A DNA stretch of 38,582 bases from a virus, in the IMG/VR virus record IMGVR_UViG_3300038436_000258, positions 1 to 38,582 of that record. One strand, given 5' to 3'. Positions 21,357 to 31,414 of the stretch are shown here, one piece after another. The position numbers were made by a program, and so were the translations under genes. Every line of letters starts with the position of its first letter. The first letter of the stretch is position 1. Below the pieces are notes generated by a model. That model was not told the DNA's origin and did no database searches. It worked only from the letters and a program-made list of their open reading frames with translations.

Positions 21357-22294
21357 TACACCACCTTAATATTCACCCCGGCCGCAGACTGCAGCGCACC
21401 GAGTGCATGTTCCTTGATCCAGTCGGCTGCATATCGGTTGCCTACGCGTATAGTCCAGCCGTCACCATCCACTGAGAACAATTTCGCTGACTTCAGCCAG
21501 GTTTCGAATTCAACTGTCTTGAAATCTGAACGCACAGATTCAAGAGTCGCCTCCCAGAGATCCAGATCATCAGAGCTAAATGTTTGCGCGCAAACATTAA
21601 CTGGATTTAAATACTCTGAATAATCTACTTTTTCTGAAGGAGAAATCCAATCGTCAGGCACTTTCCATCCTTTCTCCAGCCGTTTTATCGCTGCGCCAAT
21701 TCGATAACCTGCCGCAAGAACCTCAGCACAGTGAAAATGGATCATCCTGGAATTAACGTGTTTCAGCTTGCTGATCACGCTTCGCTTTGGTTCACCAATC
21801 CCGAACCGATCACAAGCCGCTAAATTGTCCGCGACCCGGAGATTTTCCGGGTCAGCAGAATCTAGTAGTGGTAGATCTATTAATTCTCTACTGGTTAAAT
21901 CTATAGAACTACTACTAGTAACGACACGGATATTCTCCGACTCGGAATTATTCCGGGTCGCGTCAGTTATTTCAATGTTAGGTTCTTGTTGGACAGATTC
22001 CACTACCTGAGGTTGAATATAAGGCTCGTTTTCATCGGATAATGTCATCAGAGGCAACTGAGAGACGTTTATGGCTATACGCCATGAATAGCGCTCGTTG
22101 CGGGTAATGTAACCCTGATCCTGAAGATAGAGCAAGGCAGCACTCACGACCTTGTCAGAATAGCCCGAACTTCTTTCAAGGTATTGTGCACTGACAGCCT
22201 GGCCCGCCATGGCCATGAGGATCAGGCAGCTGAGCGGCGCGCCCCTTAATTCACGAACCATTCCACTGGTAAATTTAACCTTTTCCATAGCCAT
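21353..22294 (-). CDS. Replication initiator-like protein (wHTH + DnaA N-terminal-like domain)
   Basis: A protein of about 313 residues. The N-terminal 90 residues look like a winged helix (LSCLILMAMAGQAVSAQYLE, then VSAALLYLQDQGYITRN). The C-terminal 90 residues (LWEATLESVRSDFKTVEFETWL..., ending near ALGALQSAAGVNIKVVY) match the DnaA N-terminal domain pattern that recruits helicase. A flexible polar linker joins them. The ATG at 22294 is chosen because GGCGG precedes it. It overlaps the ThiF-like gene by 20 bp, so the two are translationally coupled. The linker carries palindrome copy 3 (21579-21598), which encodes NVCAQTF. A role in origin recognition is inferred. Confidence 0.65.
   Translation of the reverse strand: MAMEKVKFTSGMVRELRGAPLSCLILMAMAGQAVSAQYLERSSGYSDKVVSAALLYLQDQGYITRNERYSWRIAINVSQLPLMTLSDENEPYIQPQVVESVQQEPNIEITDATRNNSESENIRVVTSSSSIDLTSRELIDLPLLDSADPENLRVADNLAACDRFGIGEPKRSVISKLKHVNSRMIHFHCAEVLAAGYRIGAAIKRLEKGWKVPDDWISPSEKVDYSEYLNPVNVCAQTFSSDDLDLWEATLESVRSDFKTVEFETWLKSAKLFSVDGDGWTIRVGNRYAADWIKEHALGALQSAAGVNIKVVY
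21579..21598. repeat. 20-bp palindrome, copy 3, inside replication gene
   Basis: Exact copy of AATGTTTGCGCGCAAACATT in the linker of the replication protein gene, read as NVCAQTF, the same phase as in the methyltransferase gene. Confidence 0.95.
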
Positions 22295-23090
22295 TGACCG
22301 CCTTCTCTGTGATGTATTTTGACCTGGTTGTGCCGCTCTCCAGGTCGATATAGGTGGCAAATTTCTTAAGATCTTGAGTGATCAACATCCGCACTAGATA
22401 GTCAGCAGCCTCGGCAGCCATACGTTGATTAATTGCAAGTCCCTGGCTATCGCGCAACGCCATGTCAGCACACGAAAACGGAAAGGCCGGTTGGGCAAAA
22501 GCTTTATTGATCTTTTCGTCTTTGACCAGTTCAGGATGCTGAATATTCGGCATTGGAAGACCGCTGCATTTGCCAGGTATTGGAAAAATATCAATAGTTG
22601 AGGATTTCACACCAAGCAATATCTGTCCATAACTTTCCGAGTTTCCACAATCCAGCCAAACATGCAAATCGTTGCTGTTTACTCTGCCGGCAATTTCTTT
22701 TCTAGCACTAGTCCGGTCTACACATCCGATCACGATCATCTGATTTAGGCCCTTTATTGAATGTTCAGCCTGAGAGTATTTCCTTGCCATAGCATGGATT
22801 TCAATACCCCAGGCCAGCCCATATCGCATTGCCAGTGCCTCTGCTTTATTCATTCCGACTTCAGCAGCACAGAAATTCTGCCGATAAATATTCTTTTCCT
22901 CTATCCGGTCAGGGTCAATAAAGTAAATCGAAACTTCGCGGTTAAACCGTTCGATCAGGATTTTCCCAACCCTTGTGACTGCCGGCGCCAGCCAGCTTCC
23001 AGTTCCACCGCAACCAACAAGAATCAATGCAATATGTTTTTCATTTGGGAGAATTAGTTCAAGTGGTTTTTCAAAATTCATCTCATCCAT
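22275..23090 (-). CDS. PRTRC system ThiF-family (E1-like) adenylyltransferase
   Basis: This 271-residue protein has the E1/ThiF nucleotide-binding fold: LILVGCGGTGSWLAPAVTR near residues 22-40 (GxGGxG loop), the acidic end of a strand in IYFIDPDRIEEKNIYRQNF (about 54-72), and NKAEALAMRYG. By analogy it would adenylate the C-terminus of a ubiquitin-like protein. Several cysteines could carry a thioester, including GKCSGLPMPN and FPFSCADMA. ATG at 23090 has TGAGGT six bases upstream and overlaps the A gene by eight bases; a longer frame upstream is unlikely. It is one of the core genes that define the PRTRC cassette (ThiF-related). Confidence 0.85.
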   Translation of the reverse strand: MDEMNFEKPLELILPNEKHIALILVGCGGTGSWLAPAVTRVGKILIERFNREVSIYFIDPDRIEEKNIYRQNFCAAEVGMNKAEALAMRYGLAWGIEIHAMARKYSQAEHSIKGLNQMIVIGCVDRTSARKEIAGRVNSNDLHVWLDCGNSESYGQILLGVKSSTIDIFPIPGKCSGLPMPNIQHPELVKDEKINKAFAQPAFPFSCADMALRDSQGLAINQRMAAEAADYLVRMLITQDLKKFATYIDLESGTTRSKYITEKAVNGYGKG

Positions 23091-23688
23091 TTTTGACCTC
23101 AGACGTTGGATTGAACACCAATTGATACGGCAGCACAGAATAATGACCATAAATGGATACACGCAAGCGAAAATCAACCACTGGCTGATCAACCAGGCCA
23201 AGCACGCCGTAGATCCTCAGGCCGTTCTCATCACGGTTATCCATAGCAGAAAAGAATGCCGGCATGGTATTGTGAGAATGGATTTCAATAGGGACATAAT
23301 TTGAGTCTTCCAATGGTTTTGCATAAGAAGGGTGTGTCCGTTGGGGAGGTATATATAGATGCCATTCATCATTTTCATAGAAGAGGTAAAACAATATTTC
23401 GTTAGGTAGTGCCTTCCTGCTTAAAAAGACCATTCGTGACAACAAACTAGCGGGCACCCGCTTTGGAAGAATTATGTCAGGCTGGATAACTTCAAGCCCT
23501 CGAACAAACTGGGCAGGGTTCTTGATCGTAGTTAATGGAATTGTTGTCTCAAAAACATCATTCCTGGCTGTGATGAATACTCCATTTGCTGCATAAAGAT
23601 ATTTATAAAGAAGCCCTTCTAGAGAACCTGCAGAATCGCCTTCGTGCATAACCTTGTACCCAGTAATAAATGAGTGTGCCGCTGCCAC
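23083..23688 (-). CDS. PRTRC system protein A, JAB/JAMM metalloprotease-like
   Basis: A 201-residue protein with a JAMM metal site: EIHSHNTMPAFFSAMD gives His137, His139, Ser147 and Asp150 in HxH-x7-SxxD spacing, with a candidate Glu97 in NEILFYLFY. JAB/MPN enzymes remove or trim ubiquitin-like modifiers with a zinc ion. All core residues are present, so it looks active. It starts with GTG at 23688, with GAGG five bases upstream, just after the B gene. The pairing with E1-like, E2-like and ubiquitin-like neighbours supports a deconjugating or processing role, inferred from family knowledge. Confidence 0.85.
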   Translation of the reverse strand: MAAAHSFITGYKVMHEGDSAGSLEGLLYKYLYAANGVFITARNDVFETTIPLTTIKNPAQFVRGLEVIQPDIILPKRVPASLLSRMVFLSRKALPNEILFYLFYENDEWHLYIPPQRTHPSYAKPLEDSNYVPIEIHSHNTMPAFFSAMDNRDENGLRIYGVLGLVDQPVVDFRLRVSIYGHYSVLPYQLVFNPTSEVKNG

Positions 23689-23690
23689 AC

Positions 23691-24374
23691 CTACCTCTTT
23701 TCCTGAATGTGATCTTCAATGATCCTGCCGATAGTGTAATTAGTAGTAACCAAATCCCTTGTTGGATACTTATCCAATCCGTTGATCAAGGCCAATTGCC
23801 CTTTGATATCGTCCGGAAACTTTTTGCTTTTTCCATTTTTCAAATCATTGTTGAATGGGCTTTTGAAAAAGAGATCCACGACCTGGTTGGCTTTTTCCGG
23901 AGCCACCTTCGGATTACCGTTTTCAGCTCCCCAGCAAATCCACCCGGTTGAGTTCACATTCGGAAACGGCGCGTGATATGCGGTTGCTTCAGGGCTGAAT
24001 TCTTTTTTAGCTAAAGCAAAAACATAGAACAACCCTTCAGCACCAATAAATACCAACAGAGGCGCTGGTATGGTCAACTTTCCGGTGCCAGCCTCCTCTA
24101 TGCTGCACTTGGCCGGCTTTCTGATGAAAACAAACCAGGCGCCTTTTGAATTGTTACCGACCCTGATCACGCCTTCCAGAAGGTACCCGCTGTCTGACCC
24201 TTTGTGTGAGAAAGCCGCTGCCACTTCAGGTTCGCGGATGGATTTGGTGATCACGTGATTTTCTTCTGCTTGACTCTGCCAGATATTCGTTTCTTTGTAC
24301 TTGAAAAGATAATGCCCCTGGTCGGTGAAATACAACGCACCGGTAATATGCGGGTTATTGAAAAGATCAGTCAT
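23691..24374 (-). CDS. PRTRC system protein B, prokaryotic E2-like (family D type)
   Basis: A 227-residue protein that matches the PRTRC B / Prok-E2_D pattern: LFYVFALAKKEFSPEATAYHAPFPNV, then STGWICWG with Cys147, and a later LFFKSPFNNDLKNGK. Known members have 'ApfyNv...G.vC.Gs' followed by 'aFF.S.Fth', and the fit is good. By structural prediction from the literature this is an E2-like fold, with the Cys as candidate thioester acceptor. ATG at 24374 is preferred: it overlaps the previous stop by eight bases. A longer frame from 24434 would lie inside the neighbour. Biochemical activity has not been inferred from anything beyond this pattern. Confidence 0.8.
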   Translation of the reverse strand: MTDLFNNPHITGALYFTDQGHYLFKYKETNIWQSQAEENHVITKSIREPEVAAAFSHKGSDSGYLLEGVIRVGNNSKGAWFVFIRKPAKCSIEEAGTGKLTIPAPLLVFIGAEGLFYVFALAKKEFSPEATAYHAPFPNVNSTGWICWGAENGNPKVAPEKANQVVDLFFKSPFNNDLKNGKSKKFPDDIKGQLALINGLDKYPTRDLVTTNYTIGRIIEDHIQEKR

Positions 24375-25314
24375 GATCAGTTTCCTCCCTTTCGTACATA
24401 TCCACATCATCCGTTGTGTAAAGCGGATCAACATCTCTACGCAGGATAATATCCGCAGGTATAGGAATGTGATTAGCGATTATTCCGCTGGCCCCGGATT
24501 TCTTCATCGAACTCAATTGACTTCCTCTGAGGCCGTCATACAGAATTCGCAACAAACCTGGATCATTAGCCACCATTTCAGAAGCGCTTTCAAAATCAAG
24601 TAGATAAGGTTTAGCTATCTTCCAATCCCTTCGAAGCATCTTGAGGTTTTCTGTGTTGAATTCAAAATAAACTGAGTCGGGGTCTTCGATGTTGCAGTTC
24701 AGAAAAACGTTATAAGGCGGGAAGAATGCCTGTTCTACAGCTCGATACAATTCAGGCAATTTTCGTTTTTGCAGATACCGCTTGAGAAATTTTTCATCAA
24801 TCGGGATGGAGTAATCAAGCGATACTGGTTCGGTGAAAGGCCAATTAAAGTGATCGATGGCATTTTCCCAATAGTCTGGAAGGTCAGAATCCATAAAAGG
24901 AACATTTAATAGCAAAAGGAAAGCTGTCAGGCTGAACCATGGCATGGCGTCTACAATTGAACTGAGATGATCATCCGCATCATCAAAATTCCAGGTTGAA
25001 AAACTGTTGGGGTTGATCGCCAAAACATAATTGCCGTCGTCGTCCCAACAGTCTTCCATATCCATATTCATCAGTGGCATTTCTTCGGATAATATCTCAA
25101 TTACCGTACCGCAGTATGCGCCATCATCAAAGACACATTGGAGTGTTTTTAATCGTTCATCTTTGCCAAGCCCTGATTTTCTGGCGGCAATGATGATCTT
25201 GATCTGGCTGCGTCTGGCATTCAAAGTGTCGATGATTGCCCCGATCGGCTGTACACGCATGGTTCGCAGCTCATGAAGCGACATAACGTAATTCTTATCC
25301 TTCAGCAGTTCCAT
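24367..25314 (-). CDS. Hypothetical cassette protein, possibly PRTRC protein F
   Basis: A 315-residue acidic protein between the C and B genes. It starts immediately after the C stop and overlaps B by eight bases, so it belongs to the same translation-coupled block. Segments include LTAFLLLLNVPFMDSDLPDYW (about 132-152) and PLYTTDDVDMYER near the end, with many Asp/Glu and aromatic residues and no membrane helix. Size and position fit PRTRC F, but I cannot confirm the match by eye. No catalytic motif is recognised. A scaffold or target-recognition role is only a guess. Confidence 0.5.
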   Translation of the reverse strand: MELLKDKNYVMSLHELRTMRVQPIGAIIDTLNARRSQIKIIIAARKSGLGKDERLKTLQCVFDDGAYCGTVIEILSEEMPLMNMDMEDCWDDDGNYVLAINPNSFSTWNFDDADDHLSSIVDAMPWFSLTAFLLLLNVPFMDSDLPDYWENAIDHFNWPFTEPVSLDYSIPIDEKFLKRYLQKRKLPELYRAVEQAFFPPYNVFLNCNIEDPDSVYFEFNTENLKMLRRDWKIAKPYLLDFESASEMVANDPGLLRILYDGLRGSQLSSMKKSGASGIIANHIPIPADIILRRDVDPLYTTDDVDMYEREETDHD

Positions 25315-25848
25315 TTAGAATCCCGGTACAACCATTGGTGTAGGCTGGGGTTTGGTCTCAGATAGCAATTTTCGCGTTCCGGCCATGTTTGATACTTCGA
25401 TTTCTCCGATTTCTATTGCTTCTCTGATTTCCTCATCCCGTTTGAGCATCACTTCAAAGGGGATTTGGTTCATTGCCGGCATTTCCTTTTCCTTCTGATC
25501 CAGCTCCATCACAGGGTTGATTCCTTCAGGCGCATTGATTAACTTGCGCAGCACCTGGTCTTCATCCACTGTCTTGATAGATGAATTTAAGATTGCCCTT
25601 GTCAATTCCGCGTCATCATTAAAAGGATATTCATCAAAAGCGAGTACTTCTGCTTCAGCCCCTTTAGTGCCGGCCTGTTTGACCACCGTCACTGTGATCA
25701 CGCCATCCTTGGGTTCGGACCGCATGAACTTTGCATTGGCCGCCCCAGGGAAGTAAGGTGACAGCGCGCTTTTCAAAGCGTCATCATCACCGGCAATCTC
25801 TTCAGGCATTTCAATTTCTTGCCCTTCAATTGAAATTTTGTAATTCAT
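25315..25848 (-). CDS. PRTRC system protein C, ubiquitin-like, with C-terminal extension
   Basis: The first 63 residues look like PRTRC C (a small beta-grasp, ubiquitin-like family): YKISIEGQEIEMPEE, then LSPYFPGAANAKFMRSEP, ending TVTVVKQAGTKG at residues 60-63. Typical PRTRC C proteins end at or just after GTKG. Here 114 further residues follow (AEAEVLAFDEYPFNDD and onward to PMVVPGF), acidic then mixed, of unknown fold. Processing after GTKG by the JAB-like protein, or a two-domain protein, are alternatives. ATG at 25848 overlaps the upstream stop as ATGA, with AGGAG six bases before. It is central to the cassette. Confidence 0.7.
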   Translation of the reverse strand: MNYKISIEGQEIEMPEEIAGDDDALKSALSPYFPGAANAKFMRSEPKDGVITVTVVKQAGTKGAEAEVLAFDEYPFNDDAELTRAILNSSIKTVDEDQVLRKLINAPEGINPVMELDQKEKEMPAMNQIPFEVMLKRDEEIREAIEIGEIEVSNMAGTRKLLSETKPQPTPMVVPGF

Positions 25849-26087
25849 TTCATTCTCCTGTTGAAAAAAATGCCAAGCATCGCAATCACTTCAAGTGCTC
25901 CATCTTTTGTGAACTGCATCCCAGGATGCCTGGCTTTCAAAATCGACAACATGTCATTGGCCAAACTGTCTATACGCATCTTGTCATCATCCGATAGATT
26001 GGCAAATGCTGACTGGAGTGCCTCCCGCTTTTCTCCCAGAGAGAGGAGGTAAAACGGGAGTGATTCGTTTGCTTTTGCAGCCTGCAT
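25845..26087 (-). CDS. Small helical protein between ParB and PRTRC C genes
   Basis: An 80-residue, largely helical protein (LGEKREALQSAFANLSDDDKMRIDSL, then ALEVIAMLGIFFNRRMK). It starts one base after the ParB stop and ends overlapping the C start, so it is part of the operon. It has no recognised domain; a position next to parB suggests a ParB partner or, less likely, the PRTRC E slot. Nothing in the sequence settles this. Confidence 0.6.
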   Translation of the reverse strand: MQAAKANESLPFYLLSLGEKREALQSAFANLSDDDKMRIDSLANDMLSILKARHPGMQFTKDGALEVIAMLGIFFNRRMK

Positions 26088-26088
26088 T

Positions 26089-27291
26089 TCAGCCTTGTTC
26101 CATTTCTCTGATAACGCCTGGAAGCATTTCGACTTTCAACATGTTGAGAAATCGGAACTTCGGTGTTGGCCAACCAGGTTTGAGCAAAGAGACCGTCACC
26201 CCTTTGGTTTTCCAGGCCACTGACAGATAGATCGCATTCGGATCTTCCGGGTCTTTTTTGAGTTCCTCAATGACCGGTTTTTGCACCGGATGGTTCTCAG
26301 TCGATTGAGGTTGAGTCTCTTGTACTTCAGGTTCAGAATTCGATAAAGTGGCATTATCAGGTCTCTGGTCAGCTTCTTCAGAAGGAACTTCAGCTGCAGC
26401 CTCAAATGTTGGTTCCGATTCATCTTCACCTTCACCATTTGGATGGTTTATCCATTCATCGATATGGGATTGCGTGGCACGTATACCTGATGGAGGTGGC
26501 GGCATAAACTGGCCTGGCATTGGCGCGTCCGCAGGCTCCTCGTTGGCAGTGATCGTGTCATTTTCAATCACCACAGGCTCATCGACCAATTGAAGCTGTT
26601 CAGGTTCCGGGTGCAGAAACTTCATCCACTGGTCAACGACCTGCCTGATCGAATCACTAGTTAACTCACCGCAGCTGGCTGACGCCAAGAAATCTTGCAC
26701 AGTGTCGCCAAATTTCTCATTCAATCGGGCTTGATCTTCGCCAGACAATTCATAAATTGTGAGCAACGCCATTGCTGATCTAACGGCAACTTCACCAGCG
26801 GCAATCTGATTGAGCAAAAAGGTTGGCAGCCTGAGCATCCTAAGCATGTTAGATATACCGCTGCGGTCGATGCGAAGCTTCTCGGCTACTTTTTCCTGCG
26901 TCCAGGGGAAGGATTCCAGCATCTTTTGCACTGCCCTGGCCCTGTCGACAGGGTTAAAAGTCCTGCGTTTTTCGTTCTCATTGAATGCAGCAATTGCCAT
27001 CTGCTCATCGGATAAATTGTGAATGTAAAGCGGGAAGTTATCGTATTGTTCGTCGCCCAGACTACTGAGCAATTTATAAGCCGCCATTCTATGGTGACCA
27101 AAGGCCAATTGAAAACGGCCATCAACTGGTCTGGCAGTCGGGGTCTGCATCATACCGTTTTCTTTGATGTCATGAGCTAACCCCTCGGCATGAGCCTGAT
27201 CGATTTCACTCGTTTGCCATGGGTTGGCATCAATCATAAAAAGTGGGATGTGTTGTTTTTCTCCAGATTGTGCAATTTGATTTTCTTCCAT
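26089..27291 (-). CDS. parB: ParB-family protein of the PRTRC cassette
   Basis: This 400-residue protein has an N-terminal ParB/Srx (CTPase-type) domain: HIPLFMIDANPWQ (about 14-26), FGHHRMAAYKLL (about 64-75, the GxRR-type box here GHHR) and FNENEKRRTFNPVDRARA (about 103-120). A helix-turn-helix follows (TQEKVAEKLRIDRSGISNML, about 131-150). The C-terminal half is acidic and low-complexity from about 235 to 345, then ends in a small domain (SVAWKTKGVTVSLLKPGW). ParB proteins slide as DNA clamps from palindromic parS sites. AGGAG precedes the ATG. The parS-like palindromes across the window are candidate binding sites. No ParA gene is present. Confidence 0.85.
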   Translation of the reverse strand: MEENQIAQSGEKQHIPLFMIDANPWQTSEIDQAHAEGLAHDIKENGMMQTPTARPVDGRFQLAFGHHRMAAYKLLSSLGDEQYDNFPLYIHNLSDEQMAIAAFNENEKRRTFNPVDRARAVQKMLESFPWTQEKVAEKLRIDRSGISNMLRMLRLPTFLLNQIAAGEVAVRSAMALLTIYELSGEDQARLNEKFGDTVQDFLASASCGELTSDSIRQVVDQWMKFLHPEPEQLQLVDEPVVIENDTITANEEPADAPMPGQFMPPPPSGIRATQSHIDEWINHPNGEGEDESEPTFEAAAEVPSEEADQRPDNATLSNSEPEVQETQPQSTENHPVQKPVIEELKKDPEDPNAIYLSVAWKTKGVTVSLLKPGWPTPKFRFLNMLKVEMLPGVIREMEQG

Positions 27292-27363: not shown

Positions 27364-27666
27364 CTATTGAATTGCTCCAAGTGCCACCAATTGGCAAAAA
27401 TTGAGCGCGAAGCGCCCCATCTCCCTTTGACGGATGATGGTTTCAGCCTGTTCTTTAGTGATGTAAGTGATGCGGTGAACGGATTGAATACCAAACTTGC
27501 AATCAAACGCTTTGTGAACTTTTGTTTCAGGAACCTCTATACGGATATATTGCTTTCCATTGATGGTTTCATCTGATACATTGCCGGCGAACTGCTGATA
27601 ACCCACCAGCTCTACCAGCGCCCATTTTTCATCAGGTGAGGACTCAGGCTGGATTTCCATAACCAT
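27364..27666 (-). CDS. Conserved phage/plasmid hypothetical protein
   Basis: A 100-residue protein whose start EIQPESSPDEKWALVELVG followed by QQFAGNVSDE and YIRIEVPE resembles a widespread small protein of phages and plasmids (WALVELmGh...aG.vse...) that has no known function. The C-terminus has FGIQSVHRITYITKEQAETI. It overlaps the end of ssb by 23 bp, so it is co-translated with it. It lies upstream of ParB in the same operon. A link to replication or modified-base metabolism is possible but unproven. Confidence 0.6.
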   Translation of the reverse strand: MVMEIQPESSPDEKWALVELVGYQQFAGNVSDETINGKQYIRIEVPETKVHKAFDCKFGIQSVHRITYITKEQAETIIRQREMGRFALNFCQLVALGAIQ

Positions 27667-28066
27667 CTCCAGATTCCGGTTCGTCCAAAGAAATGTAGAC
27701 CGGATCGCCTGTTTGGGTAACGGTCGGAGTAAGGAACTTAACTATGCTTGCAGTGATCTCAAAATTGGCGTGTGGGTTGTGGCTTTCATCAAACCAAATT
27801 TTAGGACCCCCGGTTTTAGGGTCAATATTCAACCGACCCTCAACCATTACCGCCCGGCCTTTCGTGAGCAGTTTGTCGCAAGATTCTGCCAAACTTCCCC
27901 AGGCGCGGATGCTGTACCAGGTCGTCTCTTTCACCTGCTTGCCGGCTTTATCCAAATACACCCGCTCAGCAGCCAACGGGAATGATGCCACCGGCTGCCC
28001 TGCAGGCGTATATCTCATTTCAGGGTCTTTTCCAAGTCTGCCAATCATGATGTGTTTTTGATACAT
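27644..28066 (-). CDS. ssb: Single-stranded DNA-binding protein
   Basis: A 140-residue OB-fold protein that coats single-stranded DNA during phage replication. The SSB signature is clear: HIMIGRLGKDPEMRYTPAGQPVASF (residues 5-29), then ETTWYSIRAWGSLAESC and LLTKGRAVMVEGRL. The C-terminal tail is acidic but lacks the typical DDDIPF tip, ending DEPESGDGYGNPA, so helicase or polymerase recruitment may be altered. ATG at 28066 is chosen for its GGAG seven bases upstream; an in-frame start at 28102 has no such site. The long leader upstream (28067-28430) holds several hairpins and a direct repeat. Confidence 0.92.
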   Translation of the reverse strand: MYQKHIMIGRLGKDPEMRYTPAGQPVASFPLAAERVYLDKAGKQVKETTWYSIRAWGSLAESCDKLLTKGRAVMVEGRLNIDPKTGGPKIWFDESHNPHANFEITASIVKFLTPTVTQTGDPVYISLDEPESGDGYGNPA

Positions 28067-30359: not shown

Positions 30360-30565
30360 AAATGAAATAAAAATAGTATAGTAATAAAGACATTCTGAAT
30401 TGTTGTAATTGTATACAAACTAATTATTATGGCCGATAGATCTATTTTTTGCATGTGTGTACTAACATCAAGATCAGAAGACAAAGTTTTCTCCAATCAA
30501 ACTTTTTCTGAATTTACTGATCATCCTGCTTCCTTATGCAAATCTTATCGACACAAGGGGCACAA

Positions 30566-31414
30566 ATGAATCCGGTTCTCAAATATCGCGGCGGCAAATC
30601 GAGGGAAATTTCTCGTTTTTTACAGTATATCCCCGACGATTTTACTAATTATATTGAGCCCTTTTTTGGCGGAGGGGCCTTGTACTTTTTCCTTGAACCC
30701 GACAACGCGATCATTAACGATAAAAATGACCGACTAATGACTTTTTATCGCCAACTAAGGGATAACTACCCTCAAATGCGAAAAGAGTTAGATGCCCTTC
30801 AAAAACAATATGAATTGAACCAAACTGCATATAAAGCATTAAAACAGATATCACCAGATGATCGTGTCCCCAATGCGAACGAAGATCTGTACTACAAATT
30901 ACGCACTCTTTTTAATAACCCTGACGGCACCTATTTGGATGGGGTTTTATATTTCTTTATCAACAAAACTGCTTATTCTGGAATGATTAGGTACAACAAT
31001 AATGGTGATTACAACGTGCCATTTGGCTTCTACCCTAATCTTAATACTAAGCTTGTAACTATTAATCATAGCGAATTACTAAGGCGAACGGATCTATTCA
31101 CGTTTGACTATAAACAAATTTTCGATATGGCAAAAGAAGATGATTTCATGTTCTTAGACCCACCATACGACTGTATCTTTAATGACTATGGCAATATAGA
31201 CATGATGAATGGATTTGATGAATCAGAACACCGTAGATTAGCAGCCGATTTTGAAAAACTACCATGTAGAGCATTAATGATAATTGGGAAAACTCCATTA
31301 ACAGAAGAACTTTATGGTAAATATATTTTCGATGAGTATTATAAAAATTATTCAGTAAATATTCGCAATCGCTTCAATAGTGACAAGTTACATCTAATCA
31401 TCAAAAATTATTAA
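30566..31414 (+). CDS. DNA adenine methylase, D12 class
   Basis: A 282-residue N6-adenine methyltransferase. Motif I-type segment KYRGGK (about 6-11) and EPFFGGGALYFFL (31-43) lie at the N-terminus, and the catalytic DPPY lies at 198-201 in FLDPPYDC. This is the Dam/D12 arrangement. Length is normal. ATG at 30566 is chosen because AAGGGG lies seven bases upstream; the frame is open 30 bases earlier without a site. It is followed after 20 bases by an AlwI-like endonuclease, so the pair is a restriction-modification unit. The recognition site is probably adenine-containing and AlwI-like, but this is inference. Confidence 0.85.
   Translation: MNPVLKYRGGKSREISRFLQYIPDDFTNYIEPFFGGGALYFFLEPDNAIINDKNDRLMTFYRQLRDNYPQMRKELDALQKQYELNQTAYKALKQISPDDRVPNANEDLYYKLRTLFNNPDGTYLDGVLYFFINKTAYSGMIRYNNNGDYNVPFGFYPNLNTKLVTINHSELLRRTDLFTFDYKQIFDMAKEDDFMFLDPPYDCIFNDYGNIDMMNGFDESEHRRLAADFEKLPCRALMIIGKTPLTEELYGKYIFDEYYKNYSVNIRNRFNSDKLHLIIKNY

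Follow-up and report, generated by a model that had tools for sequence, protein, structure and literature searches.

A divergent PRTRC-like cassette with a probable ubiquitin-like precursor in the replication region of an Anaerolineaceae phage

The IMG/VR record IMGVR_UViG_3300038436_000258, complete at 38,582 bases and analysed here over its whole length (the window), carries on its minus strand a cassette of seven genes (22275-27291) that resembles PRTRC cassettes and encodes E1-, E2-, JAMM- and ubiquitin-like proteins. The genes lie in the order ParB, 80-amino-acid (aa) gene, C, 315-aa gene, B, A and ThiF, and abut or overlap, mostly by 4-8 nucleotides (nt); B (start ATG ACT GAT) and the 315-aa gene share 8 nt, as do ThiF and A, the latter starting with GTG. 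The cassette is flanked by ssb on one side and by a gene with a DnaA N-terminal (DnaA_N) domain on the other. The genes named in the original prediction, which had been made without database searches, were found where it had placed them, and their coordinates were refined as follows.

26089-27291, minus strand: ParB-family protein with ParB_N and HTH_ParB domains (TIGR00180, 85.5 bits, over the cut-off)
25845-26087, minus strand: 80-aa protein in the PRTRC E position; homologues in the closest relatives only, by single-sequence search
25660-25848, minus strand: ubiquitin-like domain of C, residues 1-63, ending AGTK-G63 (hhalign, structural model, invariant K62 and G63)
25318-25659, minus strand: tail of C, residues 64-177, a helical "GF" domain with PGF at its end; relatives encode it as a separate gene immediately after C
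24367-25314, minus strand: 315-aa protein in the PRTRC F position, predicted to be nearly all helical; no family match
23691-24374, minus strand: PRTRC B-like E2 conjugating enzyme, 227 aa, with a Pro-Asn-x7-Cys motif (N139 to C147)
23083-23688, minus strand: PRTRC A-like JAMM metallopeptidase, 201 aa, a predicted processing and deconjugating enzyme (TIGR03735, Prok-JAB)
22275-23090, minus strand: E1-like PRTRC ThiF adenylating enzyme, 271 aa, with a GCGGTG nucleotide loop and an invariant Cys207

Profile matches, gene order and the neighbouring ssb and DnaA_N genes confirmed that a PRTRC-like E1, E2, JAMM and ubiquitin-like set lies in a phage replication region, an observation far beyond chance. 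ThiF matched TIGR03736 (PRTRC_ThiF; E-value 1.4e-38) with 132.7 bits, under the curated cut-off of 144.75, and PF00899 (3e-12) with 46.6 bits, over the Pfam cut-off of 28.1. The hallmarks of an E1 were all present, namely the GxGGxG loop, which reads GCGGTG as predicted, the ATP-site Asp and Arg, and the catalytic Cys; residues G26..G31, D59, N67, R70, K82, D125 and C207 were invariant across plasmid and phage versions, and the nearest solved relatives of the ThiF profile in the Protein Data Bank (PDB) were eukaryotic ubiquitin E1s (UBA6, 4.6e-11). The A protein scored 63.1 bits (2.5e-17) with TIGR03735 (PRTRC_A), under the curated cut-off of 101.8, and passed the Pfam cut-off of Prok-JAB (6.2e-7). 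Its complete E..HxH-x7-S-x2-D motif, the HxH-x7-SxxD part of which had been predicted, was borne out by the alignment of plasmid and phage versions, in which E97, H137, H139, S147 and D150 were invariant; H-x-H-x(5-9)-S-x2-D was intact in 99/99 A proteins of the first non-redundant set. For B, the match to TIGR03737 (PRTRC_B; 4.4e-18, 65.5 bits) remained under the curated cut-off of 131.45 and that to Prok-E2_D (1e-20, 74.6 bits) exceeded the Pfam cut-off of 25. The Asn-to-Cys spacing of its Pro-Asn-x7-Cys motif is that of classical E2s, and N139, C147 and G149 were invariant across plasmid and phage versions. A sequence-based PDB search with B, C and A returned no useful solved structure.

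The C protein (25315-25848) is 177 aa long, and only its first ~63 residues have a ubiquitin fold. Direct searches of NCBIfam and Pfam with C gave no match, and TIGR03738 (PRTRC C) matched four of 15 window-clade members (best E 8.5e-4), the window C not being one of them. In a profile comparison with hhalign, C aligned with canonical PRTRC C (probability 96.4, E 1.3e-9), the alignment ending at the GTKG region, and in an AlphaFold2 model residues 1-62 superposed on ubiquitin chains 1-76 (Z score up to 5.8, 2.5 Å). Profile matches for both B and C and a ubiquitin-like beta-grasp fold for C, on which the original prediction turned, were thus obtained; the predicted PRTRC C-like ubiquitin-fold protein stands as regards homology, but the fold covers only about 63 of the 177 residues and the rest is tail. 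The ubiquitin-like part also matched the PADLOC model C3a152, "Type III-C specific" (9.2e-11, residues 5-64), and a relative of C therefore lies near type III-C CRISPR loci in the PADLOC collection.

The precursor architecture of C, absent from the original prediction, is new here and is the most informative feature of the locus: judged from its homologues, C is probably a ubiquitin-like precursor. K62-G63 was invariant in 57/57 tailed C homologues, with an entropy that rose from 0 to ~3.5 bits at the next column. After KG came either tails of 60-115 aa, unrelated between lineages (114 residues in the window), or further ubiquitin units, to a total of 2-4 in tandem; each unit ended in GTKG, with two units in three loci (L072, L122 and L126), three in the isolated Vibrio phage D69 and four in L134. 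In several plasmid cassettes, C terminated exactly at KG (or NG). Some of the tails matched free-standing phage families, phrog_29525 for the tail of phage contig L031 and phrog_1273 for others, and the L031 tail was homologous to the free 100-aa protein that lies beside ssb in the window (E 1.5e-14; 4e-26 to L020). The window-type GF tail was a separate open reading frame (ORF) directly downstream of C in five loci (L034, L037, L040, L049 and L057), with a free copy also in L206, and in five more (L030, L031, L036, L041 and L100) this ORF directly followed a C with a different tail. In a Burkholderia-type clade with ThiF ~77-79% identical, one 65-aa protein was fused behind GTKG (L077/L078), encoded by a separate ORF 3 nt past the C stop (L095), or placed after a C with a different 100-aa tail (L091, L124).

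The tails might instead be permanent, uncleaved C-terminal domains, with C a non-covalent scaffold and KG a structural turn. Stable protein partners also occur both fused and separate, and the GF tail has been conserved over a range reaching from Chloroflexota phages to cyanobacteria, as this explanation would have it. We nevertheless consider it decidedly unlikely, given that KG is invariant at the junction while the following sequence changes completely, that KG is the C-terminus of tail-less C, and that the ubiquitin domain occurs in tandem copies.

The presence of A was compared with the state of the C terminus in 298 loci in which B and ThiF are neighbours, of which 146 remained after reduction at 80% ThiF identity. 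In the non-redundant set, 77 of the 104 classifiable cassettes with A had C residues beyond the glycine, whereas C ended exactly at the glycine in all those without A (29/29; 26 scored by script, and L011, L249 and L251 by eye). A tail without A was found in none of the 298 loci, and the surroundings of the A-less cassettes listed showed no ORF with a JAMM motif. A Fisher test on the raw counts (p 6e-13) was not relied on, as it ignores relatedness; with phylogenetic control the correlation was consistent and never contradicted, but not significant. The Bacteroidota cassettes (L230-L246) had no JAMM A, and their C ended exactly at GTKG (GVKG in L246).

The best account of these data is a phage-borne ubiquitin-like conjugation cycle with precursor processing, to which we assign a probability of about 0.7. 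C would be made as a precursor, with a ubiquitin-fold domain ending in Lys-Gly (62-63) followed by the tail. A would cut after Gly63, exposing a reactive C-terminal glycine and freeing the tail as a small protein, and would probably also strip C from its targets (deconjugation). ThiF would adenylate Gly63 and then form a thioester, and B, as the E2, would take C onto Cys147 and pass it to a target lysine; the 315-aa helical protein may act as an adaptor for substrates. Gene order, catalytic motifs, the KG boundary, the fused and separate tails and the tandem units were read from the sequence, and from them we infer the cleavage, the conjugation and the target.

Parts of this cycle have counterparts in known systems. 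The JAMM enzyme of the Bil system exposes the C-terminal glycine of a ubiquitin-like protein (PMC11354881), and in Bil (BilABCD), as in type II CBASS with Cap2/Cap3, E1, E2 and JAMM proteins act on a ubiquitin-like or conjugated C-terminus; these, however, are host antiphage systems with other gene orders and families, whereas the present cassette is carried by a phage. Release of phage TAPI ubiquitin-like domains by JAB proteins was already proposed in 2006 (Iyer et al., PMC1779556). Eukaryotic ubiquitin precursors (polyubiquitin and ubiquitin-ribosomal protein fusions) likewise have an invariant glycine followed by further units, joined head to tail, or by unrelated tails; they are cut by a deubiquitinase, whereas in the window the residues are Lys-Gly and not Gly-Gly, the tails are phage proteins and the cleavage is predicted, so that the likeness is one of analogy only.

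Several points weigh against a conjugation cycle of this kind. No E3 was recognisable, and no biochemistry on any PRTRC protein, nor any paper on PRTRC function or on PRTRC in phages, was found in the openly accessible literature. The E2 of type 6d operons has a conserved Cys plus a conserved His C-terminal to it (PMC1779556), whereas the window-clade B has no His downstream of the Cys, the window and its sister phages having PFN where canonical B has FTH. The model of C was of moderate confidence (mean pLDDT, the predicted local distance difference test, 66), and its Z score to ubiquitin was below 8. The profile that revealed the KG boundary had been trained on sequences ending in KG; the alignment was not forced at KG, but the sample was profile-selected. 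A changes only ~5 times on the ThiF tree, which leaves 2-5 independent pairs, too few for a sign test to reach significance, and with so few changes its correlation with the tails is supportive, not decisive; in addition, A served as the query for part of the first dataset, and the A-present class was therefore inflated.

In a different chemistry, C would be a sulfur carrier like ThiS or MoaD, with a thiocarboxylate made by ThiF serving the modification of nucleic acids or cofactors and not the tagging of proteins. C and ThiF do belong to the ThiS/ThiF superfamily, and a gene of the phosphoadenosine-phosphosulfate-reductase family lies near several plasmid cassettes, recurring downstream of them in four loci (L011, L013, L014 and L249). 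Such a role is nonetheless highly improbable in view of the E2-like enzyme with an invariant Cys in PN-x7-C in the loci analysed, the eukaryotic ubiquitin E1s found as the best solved relatives of the ThiF profile, and the tandem precursors, which are typical of protein modifiers; no sulfurtransferase gene was recognised within the window cassette.

Canonical PRTRC cassettes (NCBIfam TIGR03734-TIGR03739; on large plasmids such as Cupriavidus NZ_CP032520) share with the window the order ParB-[E]-C-[F]-B-A-ThiF and homologous C, B, A and ThiF. The window gene order matched the positions in two loci (L008 and L256), with unrelated or unrecognisable proteins in the E and F slots. The window differs from canonical PRTRC in scores under every curated cut-off, in having no detectable E, F or D homologue, in the 114-aa tail of C and in its phage location; from its scores under the NCBI curated cut-offs, the cassette is best classed as a divergent relative of PRTRC and not as a formal member, although it would work as one does. 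Comparison by hhalign of the 80-aa family with canonical PRTRC E, and of the 315-aa family with canonical PRTRC F, gave no match, such families diverging fast. The original prediction that the actin-like D and a clear E are missing agreed with the searches in that neither was recognisable, although the search for D, which gave no match in the record, gave none in control genomes either and thus had no working positive control.

The AlphaFold2 model of the 315-aa protein was helical (mean pLDDT 79) and had no match in the PDB by Foldseek at E <= 0.001; a secretion tip protein was rejected as a relative, the top Foldseek matches being long-helix noise. No homology to other helical proteins of type 6d operons was detected. 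The VRVRV in which its homologues recurrently end was disregarded as a probable result of coding over the purine-rich ribosome-binding site of the next gene.

Type 6d operons encode a stand-alone small ubiquitin (Ub) domain with a conserved terminal Gly (Iyer, Burroughs and Aravind 2006, PMC1779556). The window resembles them in its Ub-like protein with a conserved terminal Gly, its separate JAB, E1 and E2, and the helical protein between Ub and E2; it differs in that its Ub is a predicted precursor with a tail, its E2 has no downstream His and, in the JAB N-terminal region, another residue stands in place of the conserved Trp. Type 6d JAB proteins have a conserved Arg and Trp in this domain; the corresponding region of A aligned (RPWLH vs RNDVFE), and its match to DUF2016 was weak (E 0.03). 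The isolated Burkholderia phage BgVeeders33 (OK665841) carries C-F-B-A-ThiF, with A, B and C over the curated cut-offs and, like the window, a tailed C (62 aa after GTKG); its ThiF is 26% identical to that of the window, and ParB, ssb and DnaA_N were not detected beside its cassette.

The host of the window phage belongs to the Anaerolineaceae (Chloroflexota), an identical capsid protein (100%) being present in an Anaerolineaceae genome bin. A capsid relative with 88% identity lies within a 634-kb Chloroflexi contig and therefore belongs to an apparent prophage. Two sister phage contigs (L006 and L007) had the same arrangement as the window, and a third (L005) begins at B. A related cassette lies 7 kb from a terminase gene in the complete genome of Leptolinea sp. 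HRD-7. Scans of IMG/VR with the ThiF alignment found 272 relatives in one and 257 in another, GenBank phages with a related ThiF include Burkholderia phage BgVeeders33, Vibrio phage D69 and Salmonella phage Arash, and divergent cassettes were present in the large isolated phages Vibrio D69, Salmonella Arash, Bacillus KLEB27-3 and Acinetobacter ME3. The view that PRTRC cassettes are defined mainly on plasmids, put forward with the original prediction, is therefore true of their annotation, but many such cassettes occur in IMG/VR and GenBank phages: PRTRC-type cassettes are widespread in phages, and the phage setting of this one is not unique. Large plasmids and the genomes of Bacteroidota and cyanobacteria also commonly carry the cassette.

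Other features of these relatives were recorded. Relatives of the window-clade cassettes, with C bearing the same GF tail, were present in Nostoc and other cyanobacteria (L174-L196), in one case on a Cylindrospermum plasmid. Plasmid PRTRC cassettes adjoined a plasmid-borne dnaN (sliding clamp) in five loci (L010, L250, L253, L257 and L258), and ssb adjoined the cassette in two (L009 and L250). In Salmonella phage Arash, the E1-like and E2-like genes (gp246c and gp248c) are annotated as "structural protein"; if virion proteomics underlies this label, the two enzymes may be packaged.

The following genes adjoin the cassette in the window.

27644-28066, minus strand: single-stranded DNA-binding protein, ssb (PF00436, 6.6e-23; start chosen from homologues)
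27364-27666, minus strand: 100-aa protein (phrog_29525) between ssb and parB; homologue fused behind GTKG in L031
21353-22294, minus strand: replication gene with a DnaA N-terminal domain (PF11638, 1.5e-9; junction sequence)

The DnaA_N gene starts at ~22294, within the end of thiF. Translational coupling of the two genes had been claimed; the overlap of 20 nt was seen, and it makes the coupling itself plausible. Elsewhere in the record are genes for a portal, an HK97-type capsid, an S49 protease, a terminase, a tape measure and a tyrosine integrase. At 30536-34435, on the strand opposite to the cassette and the structural genes, a D12 methyltransferase and an AlwI-type endonuclease form a type II restriction-modification pair, after which comes a nuclease protein with an SNase domain.

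The window ParB matched TIGR03734 (PRTRC_parB) with 43.9 bits against a cut-off of 278.6, through the shared ParB domain only, as a generic ParB would. It lies directly upstream of the cassette in the window clade as in canonical plasmid cassettes, and the whole locus might thus be a plasmid-type partition or maintenance module in a prophage, with the ubiquitin-like genes regulating ParB. This is unlikely, since the phage encodes a tyrosine integrase, a relative lies in a 634-kb chromosomal contig, and ParB was found adjoining C in only 38 of the 109 cassettes tested (a lower bound, by single-sequence search). With ParB found beside this minority, a pure partition role was rejected as the general function.

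Within the conjugation cycle, our tentative choice of likeliest targets would be replication or partition proteins, or host factors competing with them, because ssb, parB, dnaN or an initiator gene is often found next to such cassettes, whether on phages or on plasmids. The same enzymology could serve another target, in counter-defence or host takeover, with C attached to host proteins (defence sensors, RNA polymerase or replication proteins) or with the phage system competing with ubiquitin-like defence systems of the host such as Bil or type II CBASS. Such a use is conceivable, if on balance doubtful: the large isolated phages that carry divergent cassettes are not expected to need a partition system, and ParB was not found beside most cassettes, but the cassette is common on large plasmids, beside replication genes, and in Bacteroidota and cyanobacteria, and in PADLOC the cassette gave only weak, partial matches to E1-E2 proteins, besides one match to an accessory gene near type III-C CRISPR.

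For years, PRTRC cassettes have been an orphan system annotated on hundreds of plasmids, resistance plasmids included. The comparison with ~300 related gene sets makes the function of this orphan cassette testable, through the concrete prediction that A cuts pro-C after a defined glycine and releases the tail protein, and Burkholderia phage BgVeeders33, Vibrio phage D69 and the Leptolinea sp. HRD-7 prophage offer tractable systems. If this is true, ubiquitin-type fusion and tandem tag precursors would exist in bacterial viruses, and complete conjugation systems would be carried by phages and not just by host defence islands. There is, in our judgement, an even chance that a large reservoir of complete ubiquitin-like conjugation systems lies in phages, the modifier being made, as in eukaryotes, in the form of fusions to other proteins or of polyubiquitin-like chains and freed by the phage's own JAMM protease. 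The phage would thereby link the output of early proteins to that of the tag and would use the tag in infection.

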